Source: Engelhardtia mirabilis (lineage in GTDB: Bacteria > Planctomycetota > UBA1135 > GCA-002686595). Taken from it: a stretch of DNA of 64,000 bases. Shown piece by piece: positions 9,850 to 63,361 of the stretch; within the stretch, counting starts at the first letter, position 1, and the number at the start of each line of letters is the position of its first letter. The notes beneath the pieces are model-generated. The model worked only from the letters and a program-made list of their open reading frames with translations, did not search any database and was not told the origin of the DNA. A program made the translations under genes and the position numbers. The stretch spans positions 4,960,001 to 5,024,000 of the forward strand of contig CP036296.1 in assembly GCA_007751255.1 (NCBI GenBank). Reading direction: 5' to 3'.

Positions 9850-11661
9850 TCACGGCCCCGGCGTCTGCGTCGCGAGCAGAGCCAGGAGCTCCGCTCGCAG
9901 GCTGGCCAGGTGTTGGGCCGCGACGACACTCAGGTTCGCTTCGCCGCCGGCCAACAGGTTGACCTGCTCGAAGGGATCCTGGCTCCGATCGAAGAGCTGC
10001 GCCTGGCCGCCGTGGGCGGTGATGATCAGCTTGTAGCCGTCCAGGTCCTCCACCGACTTGCGATCGAGGGTCGGGATCAACCCACCGACGGCGTTGCTGA
10101 AGACGTTGCCGAGGGGCTGGCTCGGGTCGACGATCACGGCCTGGGCCACGATCGAGTTGAAGCCGAAGCCGCTGAAGACGGCACCCACCACGGGCAGGTG
10201 CAGACTGCCGAGAGCATTCGTCGCCAGGGGCAAGAGCACCACCAGGGGCGAGGGCACCAGCGTCCCGCCCACCAGGGGAATCGGCTGGGCGCCGACCCCG
10301 ACCACCAGCAGCCCCGGCGCCAGGGGCGGGGCCCCGTCGAGGGTCAACATCAGGAGGTTGCCGTCGACCAGTCCCTGGCCGCCCGCGCCGCACAGGGCCA
10401 GGACCGGCGGCGAGGGCCCCGGTCCCGCGAAGCCCAGGTCGGTCTGGCACACCGCGGGCAGGCTCGGGTCGGCCGCCACGAGCTCTTGGGGCGAGGGCAC
10501 CCCCTTGCCGACGCCGTTGCCCCAGAAGCGCTCGCTGAAGAGCACGCTGCGCTCGGAGACCGCGGTCGGATTCGCGAGGTACGGCACCAGCGAGCGCGAG
10601 TCGATCGTCTTGCCGATCGTGGCCGGGTTGACCCCGGCGATCTCGGCCACGGTGGCGAACAGGTCGAGCACCTGCACCAGCGCCTGGCACTCGCCGGGCG
10701 CGGACACGGTCGGGCCACTGATCAAGAGCGGCACGCGCACGCCCCCGTCGAACAGGGTGTGCTTGCCGTGGGTGGGATCGAAGGGCGGCTCGATGCCGGG
10801 CCCCGCGGTGCCGTTGTCCCCCACCACGATCACGGTCAGGTCACCCGCGGGCGCGCCGACACCGCTGAGCAGGCGGCCGATCTCCGTGTCCAGGGCCTCC
10901 ACCATGGCGCGGTGCTGCCAGTGGGCGGGGTTGCCGGGCGGGATACTCGCGGGATTGACCGAGTGCAGCGCCGCCGGCGGCCAGTGGAAGGGCGAATGCA
11001 CCGCGTGGAAGGCGACGTAGGCGAACCAGGGCTCGGTCTGTTGGGAGATCCAACCGAGGGCCGAGTCGACCGTGGCCGAGGTCAGGTACTGGGTCGAGAC
11101 CGATTCGACGCCGTCCACGACCCGCGGCCAGTTGGTGTAGGACGCCGGATTCGAGGCGACGATGTCGAGGTTGCTCAGACAGCCGTCGTAGTGGCCGAAG
11201 CCGGCGTTGTTCGGCGCCAGGGCTCCGTCCGCAGCGCCTCCCAGGTGCCACTTGCCGAAGGCCGCGTGGACGTACTGGCCGCCCGTGTCGAGCAGCTCGG
11301 GCAGGATCGTCTCGGAAAGGGGCAGGCCGGTCTCCGTCGCGCCGCTGCCGATGGCGTTGCCGACGCCGGTGCGGAAGCCGTGGCGCCCTGTCATCAGGGC
11401 CGCCCGCGTGGGCGAGCAAACGGGATTCGACCAGGCCTGCCGGAACAGCACCGACTGGGCCGCGAGGGCGTCCAAGTTGGGCGTGGGCGGCGGGTTCGTG
11501 GCCTCGGCGTAGACGCCGAGTTGGTCGACGCCGACGTCGTCGAGGACGATCAGCAGCACGTTCGGCGGCGTCGTTCGCTGGCCCTGGATGGCGGAGGCGG
11601 ACGGGGCGACGACGAGGGCCAGGAACACCGCGCTAGCGAGCGCGCGACGGGGGTCGATCAT
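9850..11661 (-). CDS. Secreted sulfatase with an inserted beta-rich module
   Basis: A 603-residue exported arylsulfatase-family enzyme. Signal peptide (residues about 1-24), metal-binding L-D-D-V-G (39-43), then the sulfatase signature C-S-P-T-R-A-A-L-M-T-G-R (Cys82, Arg86). Cys82 is the residue converted to formylglycine in this family. G-K-W-H-L-G and G-D-N-G-T follow as expected. Unusually, residues about 425-525 hold an extra segment of hydrophobic strands with G-G-T-L-V-P-S-P and L-G-S-L-H-L-P, splitting the C-terminal subdomain; the sulfatase sequence resumes with L-D-G-Y-K-L-I and F-D-R-S-Q-D-P. The insert resembles the module shared by other secreted proteins here. It is downstream of, and 46 bp from, the SGNH gene on the same strand. 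Confidence 0.93.
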   Translation of the reverse strand: MIDPRRALASAVFLALVVAPSASAIQGQRTTPPNVLLIVLDDVGVDQLGVYAEATNPPPTPNLDALAAQSVLFRQAWSNPVCSPTRAALMTGRHGFRTGVGNAIGSGATETGLPLSETILPELLDTGGQYVHAAFGKWHLGGAADGALAPNNAGFGHYDGCLSNLDIVASNPASYTNWPRVVDGVESVSTQYLTSATVDSALGWISQQTEPWFAYVAFHAVHSPFHWPPAALHSVNPASIPPGNPAHWQHRAMVEALDTEIGRLLSGVGAPAGDLTVIVVGDNGTAGPGIEPPFDPTHGKHTLFDGGVRVPLLISGPTVSAPGECQALVQVLDLFATVAEIAGVNPATIGKTIDSRSLVPYLANPTAVSERSVLFSERFWGNGVGKGVPSPQELVAADPSLPAVCQTDLGFAGPGPSPPVLALCGAGGQGLVDGNLLMLTLDGAPPLAPGLLVVGVGAQPIPLVGGTLVPSPLVVLLPLATNALGSLHLPVVGAVFSGFGFNSIVAQAVIVDPSQPLGNVFSNAVGGLIPTLDRKSVEDLDGYKLIITAHGGQAQLFDRSQDPFEQVNLLAGGEANLSVVAAQHLASLRAELLALLATQTPGP

Positions 11662-11707
11662 CTTGGTTGGATCGGGCGGGCGGTAGCCGACCGCGCAGTC
11701 GTCCGGT

Positions 11708-12901: not shown

Positions 12902-12985
12902 CGTCCAGGGGGGCTCGGGGCCCCAGACTCTACCCCGTGCGCCCCGCCGCGGCCCGGGATAGAGTTAGCGGCCGGAAGGCCCCCC

Positions 12986-13099: not shown

Positions 13100-13118
13100 G
13101 CCGGAGTCGCCGCGCGCC

Positions 13119-23632: not shown

Positions 23633-24202
23633 ATGACAGCCCCCACGCCCTCCCCCAGGGCTGCGATCGCGTTGTGCGCAGTCGCAGCCGTGATGCTCTC
23701 GTCGGCCTCGCTGCAGTCCGGGTCCCCGGCTCGCGAGGGGCGGATCCCGTCGGTCCCGGTCGCGAACGAGCCCGAGGCGCCCCTGGCGGTCGAGATCCAT
23801 CTGGATCCCCTACAGGGTGGACGCGCCCGCGTGCGGTACGAGGTGTCGCCACTCGTCCAATGCCTCGACGCGTCGGTCGAGCTGCGCCCCTCGAGCGCCG
23901 CCCGCGTGGTCGAGCACGTGGCTCCGCCCGCGGGGCCACGAGCCCGACGCGAAAGCGTCCAGGGACTGGCCCTGGTCGAAGTCGACGGGCCCGCGAGCCT
24001 GGAGCTGGTCTTCCGCATCGCCCTCGCCGACCCGGGCGGCATCGATGGCCGATCGACCTTCTCGATCGAGCGACAGGTCCTGTGGGGCGAGCTCCCCGTG
24101 GTCGACTCGACGCAACTGGTGTACGAGGCGGGCGAAGTTACGGCGCAGGTGCCGTCGATCCTGCGGCCGCGTGCGGCCGTCGCGGGCGGAGGTGAGCGGT
24201 GA
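23633..24202 (+). CDS. Small exported protein, partner of the metallopeptidase gene
   Basis: 189 residues with a signal sequence (hydrophobic A-A-I-A-L-C-A-V-A-A-V-M-L around residues 10-25) and a beta-rich body containing E-I-H-L-D-P, R-Y-E-V-S-P and several E-L-x-F-R-I strands. No enzymatic motif is seen. Its stop overlaps the start of the next gene by 4 bp (GTGA), so the two are translationally coupled. The 204-bp gap upstream has no evident repeat. The layout recalls an Ig-like or immune-inhibitor-like beta domain that might chaperone or inhibit the adjacent protease; this is inference from coupling alone. Confidence 0.65.
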   Translation: MTAPTPSPRAAIALCAVAAVMLSSASLQSGSPAREGRIPSVPVANEPEAPLAVEIHLDPLQGGRARVRYEVSPLVQCLDASVELRPSSAARVVEHVAPPAGPRARRESVQGLALVEVDGPASLELVFRIALADPGGIDGRSTFSIERQVLWGELPVVDSTQLVYEAGEVTAQVPSILRPRAAVAGGGER

Positions 24203-26286
24203 TCGCGCTCGCGCGCCTACGGCTCGCGTGGGCAGCACTGGCCCTGCTGGCGGCACTGGTCGCCCCGGCGCAGGCCGACCTGGTGATCAGCGGCAGCGCC
24301 CGCTACGTGGACCGCGAGTTCAGCTTCGACAGCGGCTTCACGGGCGTCGAACCCGAACTACCCGTGCGCTTCGCCACGGTGCGCGTGATCGAGGCCGCGA
24401 GCGGCGCGATCCTCGCCGTGAGCGCGACCGACGCCAGTGGTGACTTCTCGATTCCGATCGTCGGTTCGGGCCAGATGGACGTGATCGTGCGTGTGGTCGC
24501 GCGCTCGGAGGCCTTCGGCGCGGCGGTGCGCGTGACGAACGTCGCCAACCAGGTCTACTCCATGGCCACGCCGACCTTCGCCGGTTGGGACCTCTCCACC
24601 GACCTGGACATCGGCACCCTGGTGTCGCCCAAGGTCTTCGCCGCGGGCCGCTTCGGTAACCCGTTCAACCTCCTGGATCAGTTCGTCGTCGGCGTCGGCG
24701 CGGCCCAGGCCATCGGCGCGCCGTCGATCCCACAGGACCTGCAGATGACCTGGCCCGCGGGGCCGGTGTCCTTCTCCAGCGGGACCGAATCGTCGATCGC
24801 CGCCGACGACGGCTACGACGATCTGGTGGCGCTGCACGAGCTCGCCCACCTGCTCTACCACCTGTTCGTGGACGAGGACCAGCAGGGCGGGTCGCACTCC
24901 TTCGGCGAGTCCGACCAGGATCCGCGCTTGTCCTTCACGGAGGGCTGGGCCACGGCCTTCGCGGCCTTGGCCCGCGACTTGGCCGGCTTCGACGACTCCG
25001 GCTTCTACCTGGACGCTTCAGGGACGGGCGCCACTGGGCCCGCGTCGATCCAACTGCGCCTGCGCCTCGAGGACGGCTCGCCCTTCATCGGCAGCACCGA
25101 GGGCGAGGCCAACGAGGGCGCGGTGGCCTGCACCCTGTGGGACCTGGTGGATGGCGCCGAGACTCGGGGCCCGGTGCCCGGCGGCGACGACGATCCCGTG
25201 GACGGCTCCTTCGAGTTCGAGGGCGGGCTCGACGGGGCGCAACTGTTGTGGCGCGCCCTGGAGGGAACCGTGGCCGCGGCCCAGGACGCCACCGTGCTCG
25301 ACCTGTGGCACGGTCTGTTCGCGCCGAGCGATCCGGGCCACGGTGCGGAGTTGGTGGAGGTCGTCACGGCCTGGAAGCTGGGCTTCGCTGCAGACGCGGC
25401 CGAGCCCGATGACGGCCTGGCTGCGGCGCGGCTGCTGGACGTCGGCGGCGGCTGGAGCGTCACGCGCACCCTCTATCGTCCGCCGCCCGGCGCCTACGCC
25501 CCGGGCGACGGCGACGGGGACTTCCACCGCTTCACCCTCAGCCAGGGCCAGGGCTTCGAGGTCTCGACGCGCTACCCGGGCGGCAACCCCGACGCGGGCA
25601 CCTTCGTCGACCCCCTCTTGCGGGTGCGCCGACCCGACGGCTCGCTCTTCGGCCAGGACGATGATTCCGGCGTCGGACGCAACGCGCTGGTGGCGGGTAT
25701 CGCGGATGCGGACGGCGAGTGGTACGCGGAGGTCTCGACCCAGCACCCCTTCCGGCGCGCGGGCTCCTACGAGGTGCGCGTCGACCTGGCCGGCAGCGAC
25801 TGCAACGGCAACGGCATCCCCGACGAGCAGGACGTCCTCGCGGGGACCTCCCTGGACTTGGACGGGGACGGCGGGCCGGACGAGTGCCAGCCCCTGTCGG
25901 CCGACCTGGGCAGCCTGCCGCTGCTCTTCGGCGGCACCCAGACCCTGTCCCTCGACGCGGGGGCAGCCCATGCGGGGCAGCTCTACTGGATCCTGGGTAG
26001 CACCACCGGCACCCGGCCGGGCATCGCCGTGGACGGCGTGCTGCTACCGCTCAACGTCGACGCCTACACCGGCTTCACCCTCGCCAATCCCGGCTTCGCG
26101 CCCCTGATCGGGGGACTGGGCAGCCTCGACGCCGAAGGAAAGGGAACCGCGCAGTTCGCCCTGCCGTCCGGAGTTTCCCTGAGCCTCGTCGGCACCGTCG
26201 TGAACCACGCGTTCTTCGTGGTCGGCGGCTCGCAATCGCTGGTCTTCGCCAGCAACCCCATCCCGATCACCTTCACGCTCTTCTGA
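24199..26286 (+). CDS. Secreted zinc metallopeptidase-like protein with shared C-terminal module
   Basis: 695 residues from a GTG start that overlaps the previous stop. Signal peptide 1-27, a beta-sandwich domain (about 30-120, carboxypeptidase-regulatory-like), then a gluzincin-like centre with H-E-L-A-H (213-217) and F-T-E-G-W-A-T-A-F (about 245-253) as the third ligand. A pre-peptidase C-terminal-like domain follows (about 410-530, G-D-G-D-F-H-R-F-T). Next is a Cys/Asn/Asp motif (D-C-N-G-N-G-I-P-D, and D-L-D-G-D-G-G-P-D-E-C), then the shared beta module (about 567-695) with G-G-T-Q-T-L-S-L-D-A-G and L-P-L-N-V-D-A-Y-T. Peptidase activity is likely but untested. Confidence 0.85.
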   Translation: MIALARLRLAWAALALLAALVAPAQADLVISGSARYVDREFSFDSGFTGVEPELPVRFATVRVIEAASGAILAVSATDASGDFSIPIVGSGQMDVIVRVVARSEAFGAAVRVTNVANQVYSMATPTFAGWDLSTDLDIGTLVSPKVFAAGRFGNPFNLLDQFVVGVGAAQAIGAPSIPQDLQMTWPAGPVSFSSGTESSIAADDGYDDLVALHELAHLLYHLFVDEDQQGGSHSFGESDQDPRLSFTEGWATAFAALARDLAGFDDSGFYLDASGTGATGPASIQLRLRLEDGSPFIGSTEGEANEGAVACTLWDLVDGAETRGPVPGGDDDPVDGSFEFEGGLDGAQLLWRALEGTVAAAQDATVLDLWHGLFAPSDPGHGAELVEVVTAWKLGFAADAAEPDDGLAAARLLDVGGGWSVTRTLYRPPPGAYAPGDGDGDFHRFTLSQGQGFEVSTRYPGGNPDAGTFVDPLLRVRRPDGSLFGQDDDSGVGRNALVAGIADADGEWYAEVSTQHPFRRAGSYEVRVDLAGSDCNGNGIPDEQDVLAGTSLDLDGDGGPDECQPLSADLGSLPLLFGGTQTLSLDAGAAHAGQLYWILGSTTGTRPGIAVDGVLLPLNVDAYTGFTLANPGFAPLIGGLGSLDAEGKGTAQFALPSGVSLSLVGTVVNHAFFVVGGSQSLVFASNPIPITFTLF

Positions 26287-26358: not shown

Positions 26359-28119
26359 ATGACGATCCGCCCCCTCATCGTCGGCGCTGCTGCGCTCGTC
26401 GCTCTCCCCGCGTACGCCGTCCAGGACACCGCCCCCGCGGCCATCGACCTGTGGCGCGCGGATCCCGACGAGACCTCGCCCGCGGCCCTCGCCGCCCTGG
26501 CAGAGGACTCGACGGTGCTGCGCTGGCGACCGATCGAGCTGATCGGGGCAGAGGCCCTTGTGCCGGTGAGCAACGCCCGGATAGCGCTCGAGTTGTTCGA
26601 TGGCCGTCGCGTGGAGGTCGACCTGGAGCGGCGTGCCCAACCGCGTCCCGGTTCGGCGAGTTTCCTTGGCGCGATCGGCGCGGCCGGCGACCACCTGGCC
26701 CTGGCGCTCGTCGACGGCGCGGCCGAGGGCACCCTGTGGCTGGACGAGCACCTGTTCGCCGTGACCAACCTGCCCGATGGCCAGGCGGTGCTGGTCGAGC
26801 GCACGTTGACCGCTCCGGGCACCTGCGCCCTGGGACCGGAGCACCACGTGGATACGCTGCCCACACAGGGCGCCGCGCGCCGCCTGCGCCGGGCCGAGGA
26901 CCCCTCAACGGATCCCGGCGGTCCGCTGACCGACACCCCCGACTTCAACTTCGTCGACGTGGTCACGGCCTACACCCCCGAAGCCCGTCAGGCCCAGGGC
27001 GGCACGGCGCAGATCCTGGCCCTGATCGACCTGGCCGTGCTCGAGACCAACGTCGCCTACGACAACTGCGGAGCCGACCTGGTCCTGCGCCTGGCCTACT
27101 CGGGCGAGGTCGTCTACACCGAGAGCGGCTCGATGAGCACCGACCTCTCGCGCTTGCGGTCGAAGACCGACGGCTACATGGACGAGGTCCACTCCTGGCG
27201 CGACGTCTACGGCGGCGACGCCGTGGCCCTGATCGTCAGCGGCGGCGGCGCCTGCGGCGTGGCCTACCTGATGACGAACGTCTCGCCCGGCTTCCAGTCC
27301 TCGGCCTTCAGCGTGACCGCGCGCGGCTGCGCGACGGGCTACTACTCCTACGGCCACGAGCTGGGCCACAACTTCGGCTGCGCCCACGACCGCGACAACG
27401 CGGGCAGCTCGTCCCATTCGTTCGGCTACGGGTACCGCACGCCGAACAACCTGTACCGCACGGTCATGGCCTACTCGCCGGGCTCGCGCAAGCCGATCTT
27501 CTCGAGCCCCGACCACTTCTGGAACGGCTACGTGATGGGCGCCGCGGGCACCGAGGACAACGCCCAGGCCCTGACCCTGAACGCCCCCACCGTCGCCGCT
27601 TGGCGCGACGCCGTGATCGAGGTCGCCGACTGCAACAGCAACGGCATCCCCGACGGGATCGAGATCGCCGACGGCCTGGTCGCCGACATCGACGGCAACG
27701 AGATCCCCGACACCTGCCAGAGCCTGACGGTCGACAAGCTGGAGCTGAGCCTGGTCCTGGGCGGCACCCAGACGCTCAGCTTCGACGCCGGTCCCGCCCG
27801 GGCGGGCGACATCTACTTCGTGCTCGGCTCCCTGGCCGGCACCGACGTCGGCTTCCCCCTGGGATTGGTCACGGTCCCCTTGAACCAGGACGTCTACTTC
27901 GACCTGACCCTGGCCTCACCAACCGGAACCCTGGTCCAAGGCGGCGCCGGCGTCCTCGACGGACTCGGCCGAGCCACCGCCGCCTTCGTCCTGCCCCCCG
28001 GCGTGGGCCAGTTCCAACTGACCCTGACTCCGGTCAACCACGCCTTCGTCGTGGTCAACGACCAACTCGTGCCCGACCTGGCCAGCAACCCGGCTCCGGC
28101 GCAGTTCATCGTGTTCTGA
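26359..28119 (+). CDS. Secreted reprolysin-like zinc metalloprotease with shared C-terminal module
   Basis: 586 residues. After a short signal (MTIRPLIVGAAALVALPAYA) comes a propeptide-like beta region (to about 185), then a metzincin catalytic domain with H-E-L-G-H-N-F-G-C-A-H-D (333-344), the full HExxHxxGxxH zinc motif, and a Met-turn M-A-Y-S near 370. This is the M12B/reprolysin (ADAM-like) arrangement. Then D-C-N-S-N-G-I-P-D and D-I-D-G-N-E-I-P-D-T-C precede the shared beta module (about 455-586), which has G-G-T-Q-T-L-S-F-D-A-G and V-P-L-N-Q-D-V-Y. It follows the neighbouring metallopeptidase gene by 72 bp on the same strand, so the three genes 23633-28119 probably form one operon. Confidence 0.93.
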   Translation: MTIRPLIVGAAALVALPAYAVQDTAPAAIDLWRADPDETSPAALAALAEDSTVLRWRPIELIGAEALVPVSNARIALELFDGRRVEVDLERRAQPRPGSASFLGAIGAAGDHLALALVDGAAEGTLWLDEHLFAVTNLPDGQAVLVERTLTAPGTCALGPEHHVDTLPTQGAARRLRRAEDPSTDPGGPLTDTPDFNFVDVVTAYTPEARQAQGGTAQILALIDLAVLETNVAYDNCGADLVLRLAYSGEVVYTESGSMSTDLSRLRSKTDGYMDEVHSWRDVYGGDAVALIVSGGGACGVAYLMTNVSPGFQSSAFSVTARGCATGYYSYGHELGHNFGCAHDRDNAGSSSHSFGYGYRTPNNLYRTVMAYSPGSRKPIFSSPDHFWNGYVMGAAGTEDNAQALTLNAPTVAAWRDAVIEVADCNSNGIPDGIEIADGLVADIDGNEIPDTCQSLTVDKLELSLVLGGTQTLSFDAGPARAGDIYFVLGSLAGTDVGFPLGLVTVPLNQDVYFDLTLASPTGTLVQGGAGVLDGLGRATAAFVLPPGVGQFQLTLTPVNHAFVVVNDQLVPDLASNPAPAQFIVF

Positions 28120-28335: not shown

Positions 28336-31300
28336 TCAGCCCTCGTAGGCGCCGCGGTCGACCACGGCGCCAAGGGTTCCGGCGACGCCGGTGTCGGGGG
28401 CCAGGGGGTCGTTGACCACGCGCGGGTTGCCGCCCAGGTCCAGGGGCAGGGGCTCGGACTTGTCACCGTCGCCGTCCACGTCGAACACGTCCGTGGGGAC
28501 GATGATGCTGTTGCCCGAGTCGCGGGCGGGCGAGCCGGGGGCCAGGCGTAGGTTGTCGTCGGCGTTGCCGGCGATGCCGTCGAGGCCGTCGATGTCGACG
28601 AACAGCGGGTTGTTGCCGTCGCTCGAGATGCCGAACAGGGAGCCGTTCCAGCCTTCGATCGTCGTCCACTGGATGTTGGGCAGGCCGCCGGCGGACTGCA
28701 TCTGCTCCGCCTGTCCGCCGACGCCGCCGGCGCCGCGGTTGCCCCACAGGATCGAGTTCCGCAGGGCGACCGAGGAGCCGAAGGTCGAGAACACGCCGCC
28801 GCCGGTGGTCTGGGAGCGGTTGTGGACGACGGTCGAGCCCACCAGGTTGATCGAGGCGACTTCCGCGTAGGCGGCGGCGCCGCCCTCCGCGCTGTTGTTC
28901 CCGATCAGCAGGCAGTCGATCAGCAGGGGCCCGGCCGACGCGATCCCGGTGGCGAAGATCCCGCCGCCGAACTGGGCGTTGTTCTGCCGGAAGACGCAGT
29001 CCTGGAAGGTCGGCTTCGCGCCCACGTCGCTGTAGACGCCGCCGCCGCGGATCGCCACGTTGGCCACGAACTCGCAGTCGATGAAGCGGGTGTCCCGCAG
29101 GGTGTAGGCCCCGCCGCCGTGGTGGCCGCCGAAGTTGGACTCGAACACGCAGTGGCGGATGGTCGGCGCGCCCTCGCTGTAGAGGCCGCCGCCGCGACAG
29201 CTCGAGAAGTACACCGCGAAGACGTCGCAGCCGAGCACCTCGACCGCGTTGCCGCCACTGATCCGGAAGCCATCCAGGACCGCCGTCGGTCCGGCGTTCG
29301 TGCCGGCCCCGACCACGTTCCAGGAGTTGTCCAGGATTCCTCCGCCGGGGGCGAAGTCGTCGAACAGCACGTCGCCCGAGAGGGTCGGCGCGAAGTTCAC
29401 CCAGTCGCGCTGGGAGAGGCTGGTCTCGCCGCCGACGAAGCCGCCGTACACGCCGACGGTGTCGCGCAGAAGGAAGCTCGCGCCGTGGTTCTGGTCGTTG
29501 GGCCAGGGCGTGTAGGTGCCCACCGCGACCCACACCTGCGAATACTCGGGCGCCAGGCTCATGGCTGCGCGCAGGTCGGTGTAGGCGTTGGCCCACGAGG
29601 TTCCGTTCTTCGCTCCCGTCGCCGAGGCGTCGACGTAGACCACCGACTGGCACACGTCGAGGATGCCATCCAGGTCGACGTCGGCTCCCGCGACCAGCAA
29701 CTCACACTCGTCGGGCAGGCCGTTCTGGTTGCAGTCGATCGAGGTGCCGTCGGCGATGTCGCAGGCATCGAGCTGCCCGTTGCCGTTGCAGTCCCCCAGA
29801 CCGCCGACCGCCACGCAGGTGTCGGTCTCGAAACCCAGGGGCACCGCGTTGCTGACGGCAGTGGTCGGGAAGCCCGGCGTGCCCATGTCGAGGGTCGCCC
29901 AGGCGTAGTTCAACTTGACGCCGACCAGGGACGGCGAGGTGCCCGCGGGCAGGAAGATCGAGGCCTGGGCGTGGGTGCCGGCGCCGAAGAAGCCGAAGAA
30001 GCCGCCCAGCTCGGGCGCCTGGCTGAGGGTGTAGTTGGTGTAGCCGTCGAAGTTGATCGGCAGCACACCTGCGGGCGTCGGCAGCCCGGGCGAGGTGCCG
30101 CTGGCCGTTCCAAGCAGCACGTACAGGTGCCCGATCAAGCTCGGCGTGCCCTGCAGGTCGAAGTGGACCGTCCCGCCGTCGTTGACCGAGAGGCTATGGC
30201 GGTCCGCGGTCAGCCGCAGTTCCTTGGACGAGACGACCTTGGCCAGGCCGTAGCCCTCGCCACCGTCCCGCGGCTGACCGACCACCAGGTCGAGCTCCCC
30301 GTCGCCGTTCACGTCGCCGCTGGCCAGGGCCACGCCGGTCAGGGAGCCGGCGCCTCCGCCCTGGGCGAAGAGCTCGGTGCCGTCGATCCCCGAGAGCACG
30401 CGCGCCGCGCCCCCATTGGTGACGTTGCCCGTGCGCGGCGCGCCGACGCCCACGTCCGCGATCCCGTCGCCGCCCATGTCGCCCAGGTTGCGGGCGCGGT
30501 ATCCGAAGCGGTCCAGGGCCGTCGTGCCTTGCACCACCCAGAGAGTCGGCGTGCCCGCGGGCGAGCCGCCCTGGGCGCTCTGACGCAGCCAATCGCCGGA
30601 ATAGAGCTGCACGCGGCCACAGTCCTCGCCGGCCACGCCGTCGAACCATGGCGATCCCACGGCCAGCTCGTCCAGCCCGTCGCCGTCGACGCTCGGGATA
30701 CGCGCCAGAGACGTGCCCAAGCCTGCGCCGGCCTGGCTGCCCTCGATGCGGTAGAGCAGGGTTCCGGTGGAGCCGGAGTAGATGTCGATCGCGCCCGCGT
30801 CCGGGAGCAAGCCGCCCAGGGCGTCGAAGGCCGGCGAGCCCACGGCGAACTCCTCGGAGCCGTCGCCGGTCAGGTCACCCAGGCCGGCGATGGACGTGCC
30901 GAAGCTGCCGGGCCCCGAGACCACCAGCAGCACCTCGCTCGCGCTCGGTGCCTCGGCGATGGCCGTCGAGCGCAACCACGCGCCGGAGAAGCCCACCGCC
31001 GCCTGGGTTCCCGGCGTGCTCGCCACCAGGTCGTCGCGCCCGTCGCCGTCCAGGTCCGCCAGGGCCAGGACCGCGCCCAGCCGCTCGCCGGGCAGGCCCA
31101 CGTACTGGTGCAGCTCGAGTCCGTCGAGGCCGGAGTAGACGAAGACCGAGCCCGACTCCGCGCCGTTGTCGTCGTCGCGCGGAGCCCCCACCGCGAGGTC
31201 GGCGATGCCGTCGTCGTTGATGTCGGGCACCACCGCCAGCGCCTCGCCGAAGCGGTCGCTCAGCCCGTCCGCGAGGGTCGGACCGTCGATGCGGTAGTAG

Positions 31301-31566
31301 GGCGCGCCGGTCGCTCCGTCGTAGACCTGGACGTAGCCCACGGTGCCGGTGATCGGCCGCGGCGCGGCCACCACGACCTCCGCCCGGCCGTCGCCGTTGA
31401 GGTCGCCGAGCACGGCCACGGAACTGCCGGCGTGGTCGAGCAGCGCCTTGCCGCGGAAGGTGAACAGGTGCTGTTGCACCAGGTCCTGGCCCAGCCCCGC
31501 TTGGGGCGCAGCCAGGATCAAGCCGGCGACGAGGGTCGATCGGATGGGGAGGATCATTGCAATCAC
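28336..31566 (-). CDS. Very large secreted FG-GAP / beta-helix protein with internal shared module
   Basis: 1076 residues. Signal peptide (about 1-26), then FG-GAP repeats (integrin-alpha-like beta-propeller blades such as L-G-D-L-N-G-D-G-R-A-E, D-I-N-D-D-G-I-A-D) up to about residue 445. The shared beta module lies internally (about 450-577, with L-P-I-N-F-D-G-Y-T). It is followed by Cys/Asn motifs (D-C-N-G-N-G-Q-L-D, D-C-N-Q-N-G-L-P-D-E-C), then a right-handed parallel beta-helix (from about 640) starting V-Y-V-D-A-S-A-T-G and rich in short G-G-G turns. Such proteins are calcium-stabilised adhesins or surface scaffolds. Two Met codons (31566 and 31557) are possible starts. The esterase-like gene precedes it on the same strand with a 4-bp gap. 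Confidence 0.88.
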   Translation of the reverse strand: MIAMILPIRSTLVAGLILAAPQAGLGQDLVQQHLFTFRGKALLDHAGSSVAVLGDLNGDGRAEVVVAAPRPITGTVGYVQVYDGATGAPYYRIDGPTLADGLSDRFGEALAVVPDINDDGIADLAVGAPRDDDNGAESGSVFVYSGLDGLELHQYVGLPGERLGAVLALADLDGDGRDDLVASTPGTQAAVGFSGAWLRSTAIAEAPSASEVLLVVSGPGSFGTSIAGLGDLTGDGSEEFAVGSPAFDALGGLLPDAGAIDIYSGSTGTLLYRIEGSQAGAGLGTSLARIPSVDGDGLDELAVGSPWFDGVAGEDCGRVQLYSGDWLRQSAQGGSPAGTPTLWVVQGTTALDRFGYRARNLGDMGGDGIADVGVGAPRTGNVTNGGAARVLSGIDGTELFAQGGGAGSLTGVALASGDVNGDGELDLVVGQPRDGGEGYGLAKVVSSKELRLTADRHSLSVNDGGTVHFDLQGTPSLIGHLYVLLGTASGTSPGLPTPAGVLPINFDGYTNYTLSQAPELGGFFGFFGAGTHAQASIFLPAGTSPSLVGVKLNYAWATLDMGTPGFPTTAVSNAVPLGFETDTCVAVGGLGDCNGNGQLDACDIADGTSIDCNQNGLPDECELLVAGADVDLDGILDVCQSVVYVDASATGAKNGTSWANAYTDLRAAMSLAPEYSQVWVAVGTYTPWPNDQNHGASFLLRDTVGVYGGFVGGETSLSQRDWVNFAPTLSGDVLFDDFAPGGGILDNSWNVVGAGTNAGPTAVLDGFRISGGNAVEVLGCDVFAVYFSSCRGGGLYSEGAPTIRHCVFESNFGGHHGGGAYTLRDTRFIDCEFVANVAIRGGGVYSDVGAKPTFQDCVFRQNNAQFGGGIFATGIASAGPLLIDCLLIGNNSAEGGAAAYAEVASINLVGSTVVHNRSQTTGGGVFSTFGSSVALRNSILWGNRGAGGVGGQAEQMQSAGGLPNIQWTTIEGWNGSLFGISSDGNNPLFVDIDGLDGIAGNADDNLRLAPGSPARDSGNSIIVPTDVFDVDGDGDKSEPLPLDLGGNPRVVNDPLAPDTGVAGTLGAVVDRGAYEG

Positions 31567-31570: not shown

Positions 31571-32926
31571 TCAGAAGTAGACGTGGCTGGAAACGTTGCT
31601 CATCACGCAGTTCCCGAAGTCGACCACGTGGAAGAGCGCGGTCTGGCCCACCGAGGAGGCGTCGACCGGGAAGGTCCAGGTGCCGACCCCGGCCGGCGAA
31701 GCCGGCGCGGTTCCGAGCAGGGTGAAGTCGGTGATCTGACCCTCGAGGTTCGGGCAACCGGGCATCGGGAAGGTGCCCGCGGTGGTGCCGGTGTAGTAGG
31801 CCAGGGTGGCGCCGGCCTTCGCGCCGAAGACCGTCAGGGAGATGTCCCCGCCGGTGCTGCCGACCATGCCGGTCGGGGGCACCAGCCACAGGCCATCGAA
31901 GTCCGCCGCCAGGCGCTTGACGGCCCAGGCCACGATGGCGCCCGTGGCGTCGGGCATGGACGAGATGTCGATCGAGCTCGAGCGCTGCCCGAACTCGCGA
32001 TCGCCGGTCAGCTCGACGAAGTCCTCGATGGCCTCCAGCATCACGTCGCCGAACAGACCGCTGTGGACGTCGGTCACCTGACCGCAGACGTCCGTGTGGG
32101 CTGCCTTGTAGACGACGCACATCGGCGGCGTGCGCTGACGGTCGTAGAGGTGCGGGTTGAGCAGCGACCAATAGGCCGACTCTTCCAGGCGCTGTTCGGG
32201 TGTGCCCTGGTCGAAGGTCTGACCGGGGAAGAAGAACACGCTCATCGTGCTGTCCCAGGGCCCCGCCTGGGTCGAGAAGCACGTCAGCGTCGACGGCCCG
32301 AGGCGCGGGATGTAGTAGTCGGGACGGCTGGACTGCACCAACACGGGATCCGCCGAGCCGGGCACGGCGAAGTCCTCGCGCAGGGCCACCGGGTACATGG
32401 CAATGGTCCCGAAGGAGCGGCTCTGGATGAAGATCTGCTCCGGGTTGATGTTGTATTCGGCCGCGTTGCCGCGCAGCCACTGGATCATCAGCCCCAGACC
32501 GGCCGAGGCCACGTGGTAGTCCTCGGTCGGCCCCACGAGCGGGTAGTTGCAGTCCACGTGCAGGAACCCGAAGTCGTTGGACAGGTTGGTCAGCTCGTCG
32601 GGATTGCCCGTGCCCACGGTGATGTTGTTGGTGTTGCCACCGCGCACCGAAACCATCACCGGCAGCGGCTCGACCGGAAAGCCCAGGGCGGGCAGTCCCT
32701 TCGCGGCCGGATACCACAGGTTCGCCAGGGTCTCCTCGTAGTCGGGGTCCGAAGGCTGGGCGCTTTGGTCGTAGTTGATCTGCGCGTCGTAGTTCTGAGC
32801 CGCGGCGGTGGAGCCGAGGGCGCAGAAGCAGGCACCGACGAGGGCCGCGATCGGGGAGAGGGCGACGAGGGGCCGCAGGAAGCCGCGGAGCTGCTCCGCG
32901 GGCCGGCGCGATTGGTCGTTGAACAT
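31571..32926 (-). CDS. Exported alpha/beta-hydrolase-like protein with variant C-terminal module
   Basis: 451 residues from the ATG at 32926, chosen because it leads to a signal segment (residues about 18-44, ending A-A-A-Q); an upstream ATG would add 26 polar residues. The core has F-I-Q-S-R-S-F-G-T-I, an S-R-S-F-G nucleophile-elbow-like site (Ser in the middle), and surrounding strands as in alpha/beta hydrolases. Acid and His partners are not certain. The last 100 residues (about 355-451) form a beta-rich tail with G-G-D-I-S-L-T-V-F-G-A and T-G-T-T-A-G-T, a divergent form of the shared module. Its stop lies 4 bp before the start of the FG-GAP gene, so the two are co-transcribed. Substrate unknown. 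Confidence 0.75.
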   Translation of the reverse strand: MFNDQSRRPAEQLRGFLRPLVALSPIAALVGACFCALGSTAAAQNYDAQINYDQSAQPSDPDYEETLANLWYPAAKGLPALGFPVEPLPVMVSVRGGNTNNITVGTGNPDELTNLSNDFGFLHVDCNYPLVGPTEDYHVASAGLGLMIQWLRGNAAEYNINPEQIFIQSRSFGTIAMYPVALREDFAVPGSADPVLVQSSRPDYYIPRLGPSTLTCFSTQAGPWDSTMSVFFFPGQTFDQGTPEQRLEESAYWSLLNPHLYDRQRTPPMCVVYKAAHTDVCGQVTDVHSGLFGDVMLEAIEDFVELTGDREFGQRSSSIDISSMPDATGAIVAWAVKRLAADFDGLWLVPPTGMVGSTGGDISLTVFGAKAGATLAYYTGTTAGTFPMPGCPNLEGQITDFTLLGTAPASPAGVGTWTFPVDASSVGQTALFHVVDFGNCVMSNVSSHVYF

Positions 32927-39196: not shown

Positions 39197-41836
39197 TCAC
39201 TGGCCGTAGCGCACGCGGAGGGCGTTGCTCAGGGTCAAGCCACCCGGACCCGCCGGGTCGACGACGAGGACCTGCTTGAAGAGCTCGAAGCCCGCGAAGC
39301 TCGGCGGCACGGAGAAGGGGAACTGGAACTGCCCGGCGCCCGGCGCGCCGAGCGATCCCGAGAGCACCTGGACGATGGGCGGGAAGAAGTCGCCGATCAG
39401 GACCGTGAGCCCCGGCGCGGGGAAGTCCGCGAGCAGGGCTGCGCTGGTCCCGTAGAAGTAGAACGCGGGCGCGCCACCGGTCCCGTTGACCAGGCGCGTC
39501 GTGACCGTCTCGCCCACCACCGGTACGCCGTCGTAGCCCAACAGGGGAGTCCAACCGCCGGTGCCAGTGGCCCCGGACCCGTACTGCTCCGTGAGCGGCG
39601 CCGTCGCGCCTTGGACCGTCCGCCCGAGGTAGAGGTGCTGGCCCGCCAGGTCCACGTCGCCGTCCGCATCCAGGTCCGCGACGAGGCGGGTGTAGGGCAC
39701 CGCGAAGCAACGCTGCGGCTCGAAGCCAAGGGGACTGGCGGTGGGGATCCCACGGTAGACGCCGAGGGTGCCGTCCACGCTCGCGACGGACGGATTCAGC
39801 AGGTCGAGGGTGCCGTCCCCGTCCACGTCGGCGGCGTAGTACTCCGAACCGAAGCTGGTGCTGGGGCAGGCCGCGCCGGTCGCGAGGAGTTGCTCTGCGC
39901 CGAAGCTGCCGCCCTGGTTGAGGCGCCCGACCAGGAGGTCCGCGCCACCGGTCTCGATTCGGCGCGCTACGAGGTCCGGGTCGCCGTCCCCGTCCAGGTC
40001 GACGAGGTCCACCGTGGTCGCGCTGATCAGGAGCTCGCTCGCGAACCTGCCGCCACCTTGGTTCCGCAGCAGCGAGAAGAGAGCCGAGGGCGTGCCGTTG
40101 GTGCCGCGCGTGACGAGGTCCGCGAGACCGTCCCCGTCGACGTCCACGACCTCCTGCAAGTAGGCGTCGGCGATGGCTTGGATCGGCCCGAAGCCCCCGG
40201 CGCCGTCGCCCGCCGACCAGTAGATCGTCGGGAGCTGGAAGGCGCCGAGGAGCGCCTGCAGCAGGTCGAGCCGACCGTCGCCGTCCACGTCCAAGAGGCC
40301 CTCTTCCTGGGCCACCAGTGGCAGCGGCACGGTCGACGTCGCGGCGGGGTCCTCGGTCCAGGTCCCAGGCGCGGTCTGGCGCAACAGGACCCGCCGCACG
40401 AAGGCCGGGGGAATGAAGGGGTGCGGGGTCGCTCCGACGTTGCAGACGAACTCCAGCCGACCGTCCCCGTCGAAGTCCGCCGGTCCGACAGCCGCCGTGA
40501 ATTGCTCGTTGGGCGCCAGTCCGGGGAACGACGGATCCGCCGGCGCGAATTCCGCTGACGCGTCGTTCTCGAGCAGCGCGAGATCGCCGGCGTAGACCGC
40601 CTGGTCGAAGCCCGGCGCGAGCAGGTCGAGGTCGCCGTCGCCGTCGAGATCGAAGGCCCGGTCGACGTGGTCCAAGAAGGCGTCCGGGCCGAGGTCGAAG
40701 GTGCCGTCCCCCACCATCAGGCGCCCCGCGGCCAGGTAGTCGGCCAGGCCGTCCCCGCTCGCGTCGGCGACGGCCACCGGCGCGTTCAAGGTCGGCACCG
40801 AGGCCGCGACCGCGAAGCTCCCGCCCAGGTTCTCGAACATGCCCCGCGGCCCGACCGCGTCGGAGTCCCCGTCGCCGTCCCAGTCGCCCGTGGCCACGAC
40901 CAAGCCATCGAGCTCGCCAAAGAAGCTGGCGGGGGTCAGTTGGAGCGATCCGCTCCCATCGTTCCGCAGCCACTGCAGCGCCGAGCCGAAGCCCTGGGGT
41001 CCGGCGGACGCGGACAACACGTCCAGGTCGCCGTCGCCCTCGCGGTCGCCCAGGTGCAGCTCCGTGCTCACGAAGGCGCCCAGGCCCGTCGCGACCGGAG
41101 CGAGGAGTTGACCCGCGTTCGAGGTGAAGACCAGCGCCTTGGACTGCGAGGCCTCGAGCGCGGCGACGACGACGTCCGCGCGCCCATCACCGGTCAGGTC
41201 GCCGCAGATCAGGGGCACGCCGAACGTGTTCAGGAAGGACCCGAAGGACTGGGACGGGCCGGGTACGAGCTGGGCCCCGTCCCAGTCCCAGGGGGTCAGG
41301 GTCCAGACGCCCGAGGCCTCCGTCAGCACCGAGACCACCTCGTCGTCGCCGTCCCCGTCCAGGTCACCGGCCGCCAGGTAGGTGTATTCGGGGTGGGTCT
41401 GCGGCGCGAGCGGCGCCGTCCCTGACTCGACGAACGGACCCGTCGGAGCGCTCCACAGGGCGACAACCAGGACGCCCGAGGCAGGCGTCTCGCCACCGCG
41501 CGCGACGCAATCGAGGTCCCCGTCCCCGTCCAGGTCGGCGAGGACGGCCCGCGAGATCGCAGCGATCGAGGGCACCGACATCTGCACCGGCGCGAGGAGG
41601 TCGCCGTCCCCGTCGTTGAGGGAGAGTCGGATCGACCCGGCCGATGTCTCGAACCGATCCAGGTCCCCGTCCCCGTCCACATCGCCGAGCTGGTGCCCCA
41701 CGTCGAGCAGGGGCTGGAGGGGCACGGCGCCGAAGAGCCGGGGCGCCCTGAAATGATCTCGAGCGGCGAGGGGCGCGGAGAGGACGGGAAAGGCGACCGC
41801 CAGGGTCGCGAGCCGGAGCGACGTGGTTCGGGGCAT
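39197..41836 (-). CDS. Secreted FG-GAP/VCBS-repeat protein with C-terminal module
   Basis: 879 residues from the ATG at 41836 (signal M-P-R-T-T-S-L-R-L-A-T-L-A-V-A-F to about 33); a Met six codons upstream is possible but less good. Nearly all of residues 40-740 are repeats with the calcium motif D-x-D-x-D-G-x-x-D (for example D-V-D-G-D-G-D-L-D), typical of FG-GAP/VCBS propellers, at least ten blades. The last 130 residues are a variant of the shared beta module, with V-P-V-V-G-E-T-V-T-T-R-L, F-Y-F-Y-G-T-S and a final R-V-R-Y-G-Q. Surface scaffold or carbohydrate-associated role is likely. It converges with the TPR gene across a 50-bp gap. Confidence 0.88.
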   Translation of the reverse strand: MPRTTSLRLATLAVAFPVLSAPLAARDHFRAPRLFGAVPLQPLLDVGHQLGDVDGDGDLDRFETSAGSIRLSLNDGDGDLLAPVQMSVPSIAAISRAVLADLDGDGDLDCVARGGETPASGVLVVALWSAPTGPFVESGTAPLAPQTHPEYTYLAAGDLDGDGDDEVVSVLTEASGVWTLTPWDWDGAQLVPGPSQSFGSFLNTFGVPLICGDLTGDGRADVVVAALEASQSKALVFTSNAGQLLAPVATGLGAFVSTELHLGDREGDGDLDVLSASAGPQGFGSALQWLRNDGSGSLQLTPASFFGELDGLVVATGDWDGDGDSDAVGPRGMFENLGGSFAVAASVPTLNAPVAVADASGDGLADYLAAGRLMVGDGTFDLGPDAFLDHVDRAFDLDGDGDLDLLAPGFDQAVYAGDLALLENDASAEFAPADPSFPGLAPNEQFTAAVGPADFDGDGRLEFVCNVGATPHPFIPPAFVRRVLLRQTAPGTWTEDPAATSTVPLPLVAQEEGLLDVDGDGRLDLLQALLGAFQLPTIYWSAGDGAGGFGPIQAIADAYLQEVVDVDGDGLADLVTRGTNGTPSALFSLLRNQGGGRFASELLISATTVDLVDLDGDGDPDLVARRIETGGADLLVGRLNQGGSFGAEQLLATGAACPSTSFGSEYYAADVDGDGTLDLLNPSVASVDGTLGVYRGIPTASPLGFEPQRCFAVPYTRLVADLDADGDVDLAGQHLYLGRTVQGATAPLTEQYGSGATGTGGWTPLLGYDGVPVVGETVTTRLVNGTGGAPAFYFYGTSAALLADFPAPGLTVLIGDFFPPIVQVLSGSLGAPGAGQFQFPFSVPPSFAGFELFKQVLVVDPAGPGGLTLSNALRVRYGQ

Positions 41837-51410: not shown

Positions 51411-52298
51411 CTAGGGGTGCCTGGCCACTCGAAGGCCGTAGGGGCGGATGACCGGGTCGCTGTAGCGGCGCTGGCGCGCGGAGGCGCGAGCCTCGGACAT
51501 CGGTCGGCTGTACGCTCCGCCGCGCAGGACGTGCCCATTGCTGGGATTGGACGAGCCCGCCGGGTCGACGCCGAGGTCGGGAGCGGCCGCGATCCGCTCG
51601 TATTCGGCGGGGTCGTAGTGGTCAGAGCACCACTCCTTGACGTTGCCGAGCATGTCGTGGAAGCCGAGCGCGTTCGCCTTCCTCGTCCCGACGACGCGCG
51701 CTCTGTCGCCCGCGTTGTCGCGGTACCAGGCCACGCTCGACAGGCTCTTGCCGTAGACCGGCCCGTCCGTGCCAGCCCGACACGCGTACTCCCATTCGGC
51801 CTCGGTCGGGAGTCGGAGTGGGCTCGACTCGGTGTCGTCGGCCTGGTTCGCCCTTCGCAGGTAGGCCACAACGTCGTCGAAGCCGAGCCCTTCCTTGGGT
51901 AGCCCCGGGCGATTGGAGAGCTCAGCACCGTCGACCAGATGGTCCCACTCGTGCTTCTGTACCTCATATCGACCCAAGTAGAAGGGCGCGGTGATGGTGA
52001 CGGTGTGCCGCGGTTTCTCCTCCATGCCGGCGAGGTCGTCGCCCCTGCTCGCGCCGCGTTCGTAGGTGCCGGGCGGCACGAGGAGCAGCTCCACTCCGGT
52101 CGTCCGATCGCGCACTCGCCAGGCGAGCCCCGTTTCGGTGATTCGCCGGCGGAGGTCAGCATCCTTCACGACCGCTCTCGATGGCTTCGCGTCGAGGAGC
52201 TCGGCCCAGATCGGGACGGTCGGTCCCTCGGGCATCGCGAGCGAGGTGGCGGAAGGGAGGCAGTGGGCCAAGAGCACCAGGGCCGTTTCGAGCAGCAT
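51411..52298 (-). CDS. Secreted FGE-sulfatase-fold (SUMF1-like) protein, probably not a catalytic FGE
   Basis: 295 residues with an N-terminal signal (MLLETALVLLAHCLPSATSL). The domain runs P-P-G-T-Y-E-R-G, P-F-Y-L-G-R-Y-E-V, R-L-P-T-E-A-E-W-E-Y-A-C-R-A-G-T, D-M-L-G-N-V-K-E-W-C and R-G-G-A-Y-S-R, all core FGE-sulfatase motifs. The Cys pair that forms the active site of true formylglycine-generating enzymes (near the C-terminus) is absent; the C-terminal helix reads A-R-A-S-A-R-Q-R-R. It is thus more likely a structural or binding member of the family. It leads the sigma/kinase operon and may be a phospho-relay output or ligand sensor; that is inference. Confidence 0.9.
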   Translation of the reverse strand: MLLETALVLLAHCLPSATSLAMPEGPTVPIWAELLDAKPSRAVVKDADLRRRITETGLAWRVRDRTTGVELLLVPPGTYERGASRGDDLAGMEEKPRHTVTITAPFYLGRYEVQKHEWDHLVDGAELSNRPGLPKEGLGFDDVVAYLRRANQADDTESSPLRLPTEAEWEYACRAGTDGPVYGKSLSSVAWYRDNAGDRARVVGTRKANALGFHDMLGNVKEWCSDHYDPAEYERIAAAPDLGVDPAGSSNPSNGHVLRGGAYSRPMSEARASARQRRYSDPVIRPYGLRVARHP

Positions 52299-60292: not shown

Positions 60293-63200
60293 ATGACCGC
60301 GCAGCCCGTGTATCGCCCCTTGCATTCCCCTGATTCCAGATCGCTCGCCCGCGGGTGGGCCCGGGCCCTCCCTGAGCGCGCCCTGCCTGTGTTGGCCTGC
60401 GCGGCCCTCGCCGCGGCGCTCGCGACCCCCGCCGTGGCCCAGGTCCAGTACGAGTTGGCTGGTGGCTCGATCGCGTCGGTCACGGTCGGCGGCCAGAAGT
60501 TGACGCCCGACGAGCTCAGCACGGGTACGTCGACCGGAGCCGTGCAACTGCTCGAATCCGGCGGCAAGCCGATCACCGCTGCCGACAACCTCGACCTCTA
60601 CAGCTACTTCGCGCGCACGACCGTCTCGCCCGACCTGTGGGCGATCGACCTCGACCCGACCTGGCGGGACACCTCGGGCAGCGCTGAGGACTTCTTCGTC
60701 TTCGAGGTGGGCGGCAACGACCCCCTGCGGGTGTCCGCGCGACTGGTGGACGGCTCACTCGGGCAGGAAGTCACCTTCAGTGCTTGGAACGACCTGTCGT
60801 TGATCGCGTTGAACGGCCCGAACAGCGGTCAGCACGTCCACGCCCTGTCCTTCTCCGGCTCCGACCTCCTGGACCCCTCCGGTCTGCCCCTCGGCCCCGG
60901 TGATGAGCTGAGCGGCATCGAGATCCGCTCGGCCACGGTCGACGGCGCCGCCTTCGTCCATCGCGCCGTCCCGGCCGCGCCCCTCTATCGCCCGACCATC
61001 GTCGCCACCCACAGCGCGGTGCCGTTCCTCGACCTGGGTCAGACCCAGGTCACCCTCACGGCCACCCTGCCGGTGGGCGCGCCTCCGCAGGCCTTCGAGT
61101 GGTCGATCGGCGAGGCGACCTTCGTCGGCGGCTCGGGCGCCGGCGACCCCCAGATCACGCTCACGACCCAGGCCTTCGATCCGCTCGAGATCGACCTGAA
61201 GACCTACCCCCTCGGGCACCCGGAGGACTTCCAGAAGGCCAGCTACTCCCTCGGGCTGAAGCTGCCCGGTGGCGCGGAGCTGCACGGCTCGGCGAAGAAG
61301 TGGCAGAAGCTCGAACTGTGGTTCGACGGCCCCCTGCACGCGCAGGAAGACAGCGCCCCGAACCCCTTCTTGGACCTGCGACTGGACGTGCTCTTCCTGC
61401 GTCCGGACGGCACGCCCCTGCTGGTGCCGGGCTTCTTCGCCGGCGACGGGCGCGGCTCGGGCACCGGCCGTGTCTGGAAGGTGCGTCTGGTTCCCGATGC
61501 GATCGGGAACTGGACCTACCTGACGTCCTTCCGCTCGGGCCCGAACGTGGCGGTGGCGACCAACCCCCTGGTGGGCGTGGGCGTCGCGTTCGACGGCACC
61601 CTCGGCGCCCTCGCGATCGAGAAACGGGACACAGACGCGCCCGGCTTCCTGGCCGAGGGCCGACTCGTCTACGCGGACGGGCCCTACCGGCGGCAGGTGG
61701 ACGGCGGATACTGGCTCAAGGGCGGCACCAACAGTCCGGAGAACCTGTTCGCCTTCCGCGGCTTCGAGGGCACCGAGGACCAGAACGGCGTCGACGGGCT
61801 GCACGAGTTCGGTCCCCACGAGGCCGATTGGACCGCGGCCGACGCCGACATCCCCGGGGGCACCTTCGCCGGCGACCGGGCCCTGCTCGGCGCGCTCAAC
61901 TACCTGGAGAGCCAGGGTGTCAACGGGCTCTACTTCCTGCCCTTCAACCTGGGGGGCGACGGGTCGGACACGGCTCCCTTCCTGGGCTTCGCCAACACCG
62001 GCTACGACAAGACGCACTACGCGATCCGCCGCCTGCACCAATGGGAGGCGATCCTGTGGGAGGCCACCAAGCGCGGGATGCACCTGCAGATCGTGCTCGC
62101 GGAGACCGAGCCGGCCAACGAGAACTGGCTCGACGGCGGACAGTTCGGCAACGAGCGCAAGCTGTTCTTCCGCGAGCTCGTGGCGCGCTTCGGCCATCAC
62201 CTGGCGCTGAAGTGGAACCTGTCGGAGGAGAACGACTTCTCCAACGCACAGCTCACGGCCATGGCCGGCTACCTGCGCGGCATCGACCCCTACGACAGCC
62301 CGATCTCCTTCCACGTCAAGCCCAACGAAGTGGCTGTCTACCAGGCCTTCTACGGCAGCCCCCTGTTCGAGGCGGCCTCGGTGCAGTTCTCGCCCGACCT
62401 GGCCGGCAGCTTGACCGAGGAGGTCCGCGCCAAGTCGATCGCCGCCGGCCGCCCGTGGGTGGTCGACATGGACGAGACGACTCCGGCCGAGATCGGGTTG
62501 TCCGACGCCAACGCGCCGGATCTGCGCAAGCGGGTGCTTTGGGACGTGTACCTGTCCGGTGGCCAGGTGGAGTGGTACGCCGGCCAAAGCCCGCTCCCCG
62601 TCGGCGGCGACACGACCCTCGAGGACTTCCGCACGCGCGAGGAGATGTGGACCTACACGCGCCACGCGCGCACCTTCCTCGAGGCGCTGCCCTTCTGGCT
62701 GATGGAGCCCTCCGACGGGCTGCTCGCCGGCGAGAGTCCGGCCTTCGGCGGCGGCGAGGTGCTGGCCCTGGCGGGCGAGGCCTACGCGGTGTACCTGCCC
62801 GATGCCAGCCAAGCGGCCAGCCTCGATCTCTCCGGGGTCAGCGGCCCCTTCGACCTGCGCTGGTTCGACCCGCGCAGCGGTAACTACGGCCCCACCACGA
62901 AGGTCACAGGCGGCGGTCTGCTCGCGCTCGGTACCCCGCCCGCCCAGCCGGGCGAAGACTGGGCCGTCGTCGTGCGGCGCCCCTCGCTGTGGACCACGAC
63001 CAAGTCGGTCTCTTCGGCCACCGGCGGGACGGTCGTGCTCGAGCTCGACGGTACCCCCGCGATGGCAGGCTGGTCGTACGTGGTGCTGGGCTCGATCTCG
63101 GGCACGGCTCCGGGGCTGACCCTGGGCTCAGGGCTCGTGTTGCCGCTCGTCTACGACCTCTACAGCCAGCTGATCCTCTCCGGTGGCGCACCCATCAGTG

Positions 63201-63361
63201 GCGGCGCGGGGCTCCTCGACGAGGCCGGTCGCGCGACCGCGACCGTCGACTTCCCGGCCGCTCCCGCCGTCGTCGGATTGCGGGTCTACCACGCCTGGAT
63301 CGGCGCGCCGAACCTGGCCGACATACCGAGCGTGGCGACGATGGTCCTCTACGCCCCGTGA
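60293..63361 (+). CDS. Secreted glycoside-hydrolase-like protein (DUF5060 / GH140-type) with C-terminal module
   Basis: 1022 residues with a long N-terminal signal (hydrophobic A-L-P-V-L-A-C-A-A-L-A-A-A-L-A near 30-45, cleavage near A-V-A-Q). Beta domains to about 300 lead to a DUF5060-like domain (about 340-430, W-K-V-R-L-V-P-D-A-I-G-N-W-T-Y). Then a TIM-barrel (about 480-790) with L-Y-F-L-P-F-N-L-G-G-D, M-H-L-Q-I-V-L-A-E-T-E and A-L-K-W-N-L-S-E-E-N-D, where the double Glu is the expected catalytic region of apiosidase-like/GH140 enzymes. A further beta domain and the shared C-terminal module (about 900-1022, G-G-T-V-V-L-E-L-D-G, V-L-G-S-I-S-G-T-A-P-G) end it. Substrate is unknown. Confidence 0.88.
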   Translation: MTAQPVYRPLHSPDSRSLARGWARALPERALPVLACAALAAALATPAVAQVQYELAGGSIASVTVGGQKLTPDELSTGTSTGAVQLLESGGKPITAADNLDLYSYFARTTVSPDLWAIDLDPTWRDTSGSAEDFFVFEVGGNDPLRVSARLVDGSLGQEVTFSAWNDLSLIALNGPNSGQHVHALSFSGSDLLDPSGLPLGPGDELSGIEIRSATVDGAAFVHRAVPAAPLYRPTIVATHSAVPFLDLGQTQVTLTATLPVGAPPQAFEWSIGEATFVGGSGAGDPQITLTTQAFDPLEIDLKTYPLGHPEDFQKASYSLGLKLPGGAELHGSAKKWQKLELWFDGPLHAQEDSAPNPFLDLRLDVLFLRPDGTPLLVPGFFAGDGRGSGTGRVWKVRLVPDAIGNWTYLTSFRSGPNVAVATNPLVGVGVAFDGTLGALAIEKRDTDAPGFLAEGRLVYADGPYRRQVDGGYWLKGGTNSPENLFAFRGFEGTEDQNGVDGLHEFGPHEADWTAADADIPGGTFAGDRALLGALNYLESQGVNGLYFLPFNLGGDGSDTAPFLGFANTGYDKTHYAIRRLHQWEAILWEATKRGMHLQIVLAETEPANENWLDGGQFGNERKLFFRELVARFGHHLALKWNLSEENDFSNAQLTAMAGYLRGIDPYDSPISFHVKPNEVAVYQAFYGSPLFEAASVQFSPDLAGSLTEEVRAKSIAAGRPWVVDMDETTPAEIGLSDANAPDLRKRVLWDVYLSGGQVEWYAGQSPLPVGGDTTLEDFRTREEMWTYTRHARTFLEALPFWLMEPSDGLLAGESPAFGGGEVLALAGEAYAVYLPDASQAASLDLSGVSGPFDLRWFDPRSGNYGPTTKVTGGGLLALGTPPAQPGEDWAVVVRRPSLWTTTKSVSSATGGTVVLELDGTPAMAGWSYVVLGSISGTAPGLTLGSGLVLPLVYDLYSQLILSGGAPISGGAGLLDEAGRATATVDFPAAPAVVGLRVYHAWIGAPNLADIPSVATMVLYAP

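Follow-up and report, generated by a model that had tools for sequence, protein, structure and literature searches.

Two families of small domains, here called A and B, were found to recur on exported-type proteins of Engelhardtia mirabilis. The reading favoured here, with a probability of about 0.46, is that they are interchangeable, mostly uncleaved C-terminal docking domains that represent two branches of one superfamily and would be recognised by a common partner. This reading is put forward because the modules lie at the chain end, keep a conserved last residue, occur on diverse exported hosts, replace one another on homologous hosts and are distributed together among genomes.

Copies in the window, in the genome and in the phylum

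The window, i.e., the whole stretch of 64,000 nucleotides analysed, contains seven host proteins, and all seven show a signal-peptide-like N-terminus by eye. A sequence-only reading of the window had proposed that one module recurs in four clear and three divergent copies. All four clear copies were recovered under one iterated HMM (family A), and the motif order proposed for them agrees with the alignment consensus of A, which ends in S-N-A-x-x-L-x-L-x-P. The divergent copies are real as well, but profile searches place them in a second family (B), of which the esterase copy is only a probable member, so the proposal of a single module in all seven proteins was rejected. The copies are as follows.

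25891..26283, + strand: module A, C-terminal, protein 24199-26286 (one iterated HMM)
27721..28116, + strand: module A, C-terminal, M12B reprolysin-like protease 26359-28119 (same iterated HMM as 25891..26283)
29812..30216, - strand: module A, mid-protein, protein 28336-31566 (same iterated HMM as 25891..26283)
62984..63358, + strand: module A, C-terminal, DUF5060 / Collagen_bind_2 protein 60293-63361 (same iterated HMM as 25891..26283)
39200..39586, - strand: module B, C-terminal, FG-GAP protein 39197-41836 (profile)
about 10072-10446, - strand: module B, insert in sulfatase 9850-11661, followed by about 78 residues (profile)
31574..31921, - strand: probable module B, C-terminal, esterase-like protein 31571-32926 (marginal E before inclusion)

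In protein 24199-26286, a PPC domain lies upstream of module A and an HExxH-like motif was seen by eye, while in 28336-31566 FG-GAP repeats are followed by module A and then by a right-handed beta-helix. With first-round B profiles, the sulfatase insert and the FG-GAP tail detected each other at E values of 1e-8 and 1.8e-8 when the other copy was still outside the profile, and by these profile matches both are firmly placed in family B. The esterase tail probably belongs to B as well: it scored between 1.5e-4 and 1e-3 in the run seeded with the FG-GAP tail, prior to its entry into the profile, and 0.009-0.08 in the run seeded with the sulfatase insert, where it never entered. Its profile match covers 31619-31921 only, and the BD-FAE match of its host was under the cut-off.

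A calcium-loop-like motif, D-x-N-x-N-G-x-P-D, is present directly upstream of the A copies at 25891 and 27721 (+ strand). As a constant partner of module A this motif was rejected, being found within 60 residues upstream in 7/75 copies. The window that holds the sulfatase also encodes a protein kinase fused to a WD40-type propeller (46064-50638) and a sulfatase-modifying-factor-like protein (51411-52298).

The source genome comprises 6.95 Mb on two contigs, and the set of modules in it is larger than the sequence-only reading had supposed. Module A is about 125 aa long, and an iterated profile seeded with the tail of 24199-26286 collected 75 distinct copies (three of them on frames <200 aa) from the window and from stretches taken from this genome. 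With an alignment of 51 of these copies as query, the whole genome returned 83 matches at E <= 0.001, a number that rose to 91 when the threshold was relaxed to E <= 1. For module B, at least 121 matches at E <= 0.01 were obtained, with 150 of the 317 candidates scored. One place only, near C1:427205, was common to the A and B match lists by eye.

Although the A profile failed to find the three B copies of the window (E 11 or worse, or no match), profile-profile alignment (hhalign) of A against B gave a probability of 83%, an E value of 8.6e-6 and a score of 36.4 over 98 columns. The controls reached at most 22.6 in 100 shuffles by blocks of three columns (62% of the real score) and 12-13 for reversed profiles. 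By this comparison the similarity is above chance, and A and B appear to be remotely related members of one superfamily. In Pfam and NCBIfam, no family matched more than one member among 51 members of A and 44 of B, and the isolated matches were at chance level. No description of either domain was found in the open-access literature, and on the basis of these three sources A and B are undescribed.

Within an evenly drawn sample of 294 Planctomycetota genomes (positive at E <= 1e-5), A was present in 54 and B in 57, and all 54 genomes with A were among the 57 with B; the three genomes with B only had one or two matches apiece. Copy numbers from this sample are floors and weak carriers may escape, since just 14-15 candidates were scored per genome. 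Among the source genome and 40 near ones, 39/41 were positive for A, with 0 to 36 matches per near genome vs 83 in the source genome. Since A has 83 matches in its own genome and is present in 39 of these 41, chance is excluded as an explanation for it. In a scan of named genomes with a single peptide pattern, a narrow probe that says nothing on absence elsewhere, 14 relatives of A were obtained among 21 stretches, 13 of them titled planctomycetes and one 'bacterium'. The module may be lineage-specific, as suggested earlier, the coverage being 13/14 planctomycete relatives in this pattern scan and a profile search inside the phylum.

Chain end, composition and predicted fold

In this genome 71 of the 75 A copies lie within 20 residues of the stop, the other four being 51, 390, 501 and 504 residues away, and in the relatives 41 of 43 A copies are terminal, with the remaining two 25 and 409 residues before the stop. 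Mid-protein copies of A are found in 28336-31566, in its paralogue (L057:3087-6818) and in a protein of locus L051. The two paralogues share the same order of FG-GAP repeats, module A, calcium-loop-like repeats and beta-helix. The L051 protein ends, by eye, in another B-like domain. For B, 9/63 copies are more than 20 residues from the end, one of these just 25 residues away and four on frames running past the fetched stretch. B is inserted in two related sulfatases, at locus L125 and in the window (9850-11661), where 71 and 78 residues, respectively, follow it. In a protein that looks by eye like a metallo-beta-lactamase (L133:1342-2679), B stands right behind the signal peptide, ahead of the catalytic part. 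These internal and N-terminal copies are easier to reconcile with a folded, uncleaved domain than with a tail that must be cleaved off.

The last residue is Pro in 52/68 A hosts, 7/16 B hosts and 28/304 other genes of a crude predicted gene set, as well as in 28/41 terminal A copies of the relatives and 28/54 terminal B copies; the copies are paralogues, so neither these counts nor those of position are independent events. The C-terminal Pro may have a structural role. Lys and Arg together account for 1.22% of A and 1.42% of B. The stretch of roughly 300 residues upstream of A has 4.76%, and the C-terminal 120 residues of the 388 predicted genes, a set that includes the module hosts, have 8.74%. 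GRAVY was 0.61 for A and 0.62 for B, compared with 0.04 upstream of A and 0.0 in the last 120 residues of the 388 genes. The near absence of Lys and Arg suggests that the surface of the folded domain would be largely uncharged.

For the A copy 25891-26283, AlphaFold2 with an input of 20 sequences (four from the window and 16 copies from 14 pattern-scan loci) returned a model consisting mainly of strands with one short helix, at a mean pLDDT of 96.2 and a pTM of 0.88. In Foldseek this model retrieved Ig-like sandwiches, the top one at E 5e-4 with a query-based TM of 0.51 and none of them a close match, and against viral models the matches were weak. Module A is thus confidently predicted to be an Ig-like beta-sandwich. 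Among the Ig-like PDB folds, the PapD pilus chaperone and the major sperm protein have a beta-sandwich as in A at 10% identity, a likeness seen at the level of fold, and the A profile, when searched against PDB sequences, gave no significant solved relative (best E 0.63, chance level). The sequence-only reading had named a match to a known common domain as evidence against its proposal; for A such a match was found at the level of fold, but at the level of family none was found in Pfam or NCBIfam. The B model, built from 8 sequences, is of low confidence (pLDDT 63.7), so the case for a fold shared by the two families depends on the comparison of their profiles.

Hosts and tail exchange

A domain scan covered 72 of the 75 A hosts, the three on frames <200 aa being excluded. 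FG-GAP_2 repeats were present in 24/72, and the other hosts contained PQQ, kelch, beta-helix, subtilase, M12B, DUF5060, glucose/sorbosone dehydrogenase, CHRD and arylsulfotransferase domains; many had no domain at E <= 1e-4 among the matches listed. By a crude rule that misses 23/68 A hosts, a signal-peptide-like N-terminus was assigned to 45/68 A hosts, 8/16 B hosts and 87/304 other genes. Judged from their sequences, the hosts vary widely, and most look extracytoplasmic. The earlier view that a mobile, folded module is carried by varied hosts, mostly of export type, is supported, the module being usually C-terminal but internal in the sulfatase and in mid-protein.

With the modules cut off, 134 host parts were clustered, and four clusters contained both A and B hosts (21 A and 4 B; 4 A and 1 B; 2 A and 2 B; 1 A and 2 B), the links being partly repeat-based and single links possibly loose. 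A fifth cluster joined 24199-26286, which carries A, with three paralogues at 43-44% identity that lack A; against B, the tail of one of these paralogues matched weakly at E 5.5e-4 and that of another at 0.0055.

Relatives of the M12B protease were searched in 41 genomes, of which 16 were positive (the source genome included), giving 19 loci. Three loci were left out, namely L183, which was missed by the local search, and two that are truncated ahead of the C-terminus. The 16 complete relatives, which include the paralogue L185 from the source genome and two proteins from one genome, end in A in one case (the window protein), in B in eight (E 2.1e-18 to 3.1e-11), in a B-like tail in four and in another tail in three. 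As a group, the B-like tails matched B with a probability of 93% and an E value of 4.1e-7 (a comparison without shuffled control), and one by one 1/4 was below 1e-3 against the B profile. The M12B tails at L170, L171, L172 and L175 form a third, shorter type, whose relation to B shows when profiles are compared, whereas the B profile hardly finds them one by one. L186, which is M12B-like, and L173 carry unrelated-looking tail domains at the same position as A and B. This mixture indicates that different tails occupy one boundary in related enzymes.

On a tree of the A modules, which is resolved in its smaller part, FG-GAP_2-type hosts required 14 changes compared with 18.3 after shuffling (7/500 shuffles as low), and four host groups required 20 changes compared with 26.7 (0/200 as low). 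Clustering by host type above chance indicates that the modules have been partly inherited with their hosts, which argues against free exchange.

Proposed function, rival explanations and significance

As docking domains, A and B would act after their hosts have crossed the inner membrane by the N-terminal signal peptide predicted from sequence. The module would fold in the periplasm, where a putative envelope partner, presumably common to both families, would bind the module and not the cargo. The partner would then direct the host to the outer layer or surface of the cell, or retain it there, and the module would normally remain attached to the host protein. Outer-membrane export and surface attachment are both compatible with the present data. 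A wider proposal, that a subset of planctomycetes has its own sorting system, with a dedicated receptor or exporter and with uncleaved, near-chargeless, often Pro-ending domains on some 200 cargo proteins in this genome, is tentative and rather doubtful.

Alternatively, A and B could be Ig-like domains of a generic kind, structural or ligand-binding (for adhesion or polysaccharide binding), that multiplied by duplication without any part in sorting. A position at the chain end in 71/75 A copies, together with a conserved last residue, is unexpected for binding domains. Nor do the hosts point to a shared substrate, Pfam gave no match to a carbohydrate-binding family, and related proteases carry A, B or other tails from the same boundary on. 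Since the Ig-like fold is common, an adhesive or structural domain is nevertheless possible, and the many weak Foldseek matches, the internal copies and the partial clustering of modules by host type are in line with it, as are lineage expansions, which are common for domains of this kind. A generic role is considered unlikely, though it deserves serious attention.

PEP-CTERM, MYXO-CTERM and GlyGly-CTERM tags are short, consist of three parts and include a membrane helix and a basic tail. A and B resemble them in that one C-terminal tag is placed on many exported proteins per genome, whereas A is predicted to be an all-beta-like folded domain and has almost no Lys or Arg. No NCBIfam model of the PEP-CTERM type matched the 51 A or 44 B members. 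The genome encodes one exosortase (G000:C1:5827508-5828239), so the A and B modules may exist alongside a PEP-CTERM-type system.

The sorting domains (CTDs) of T9SS in Bacteroidota are represented by the models Por_Secre_tail (Pfam) and TIGR04183. At E <= 0.1, 0/51 A and 0/44 B members matched a Pfam or NCBIfam T9SS sorting-domain model, and the one T9SS-related name returned, GldM_2nd, was for 1/51 A members at the chance level of E 0.07. A search for SprA_N gave no match in this genome, nor in any control genome, and no T9SS CTD was named among the best 50 of 1847 PDB matches to A in Foldseek. As described in PMC11285876, the CTDs are Ig-like beta-sandwiches at the C-terminus, 70-100 residues long, whose C-terminal end is conserved and whose last strand has a conserved Lys; they can be swapped between cargoes, and T9SS genes are reported there as absent outside the FCB phyla. 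By analogy with that description, they are the nearest known working model for A and B, the likeness lying in the C-terminal position, the conserved chain end, the many diverse exported hosts and the exchangeability (PMC11285876). The Ig-like sandwich is also shared by A, as predicted (pLDDT 96.2, Foldseek; terminal in 71/75). Differences are the length of about 125 residues for A, the near absence of Lys and Arg from A and B, the mostly Pro last residue, the internal copies and the other phylum. Membership in T9SS is not supported, because no model matched, the conserved Lys is lacking and T9SS genes are, according to PMC11285876, confined to FCB phyla. A type IX-like system in which the modules serve as outer-membrane export signals and are cut off by a sortase-like protease would account for the position, related fold class and conserved end shared by A with T9SS CTDs (PMC11285876), and is improbable in view of the missing models, Lys and gene distribution and of the internal and N-terminal copies.

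Five secretin-domain genes in the genome and the capacity of T2SS to export folded proteins could suggest that the modules are type II secretion substrate-recognition domains on folded cargo leaving via the secretin, but secretins were also found in 6/14 control genomes and serve type IV pili too, and this explanation is very improbable.

No account of protein traffic across or onto the outer membrane in these planctomycetes was found in the open-access literature. If the docking-domain reading is correct, the roughly 200 matches to the superfamily in this genome would directly list the likely surface and extracellular proteins. The superfamily would also offer a handle on the exporter or receptor, with a reporter assay possible, and the co-distribution of A and B points to the genomes expected to hold the partner. 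The wider proposal, if true, would mean a separate large sorting system in a phylum outside the group for which T9SS is reported in PMC11285876.
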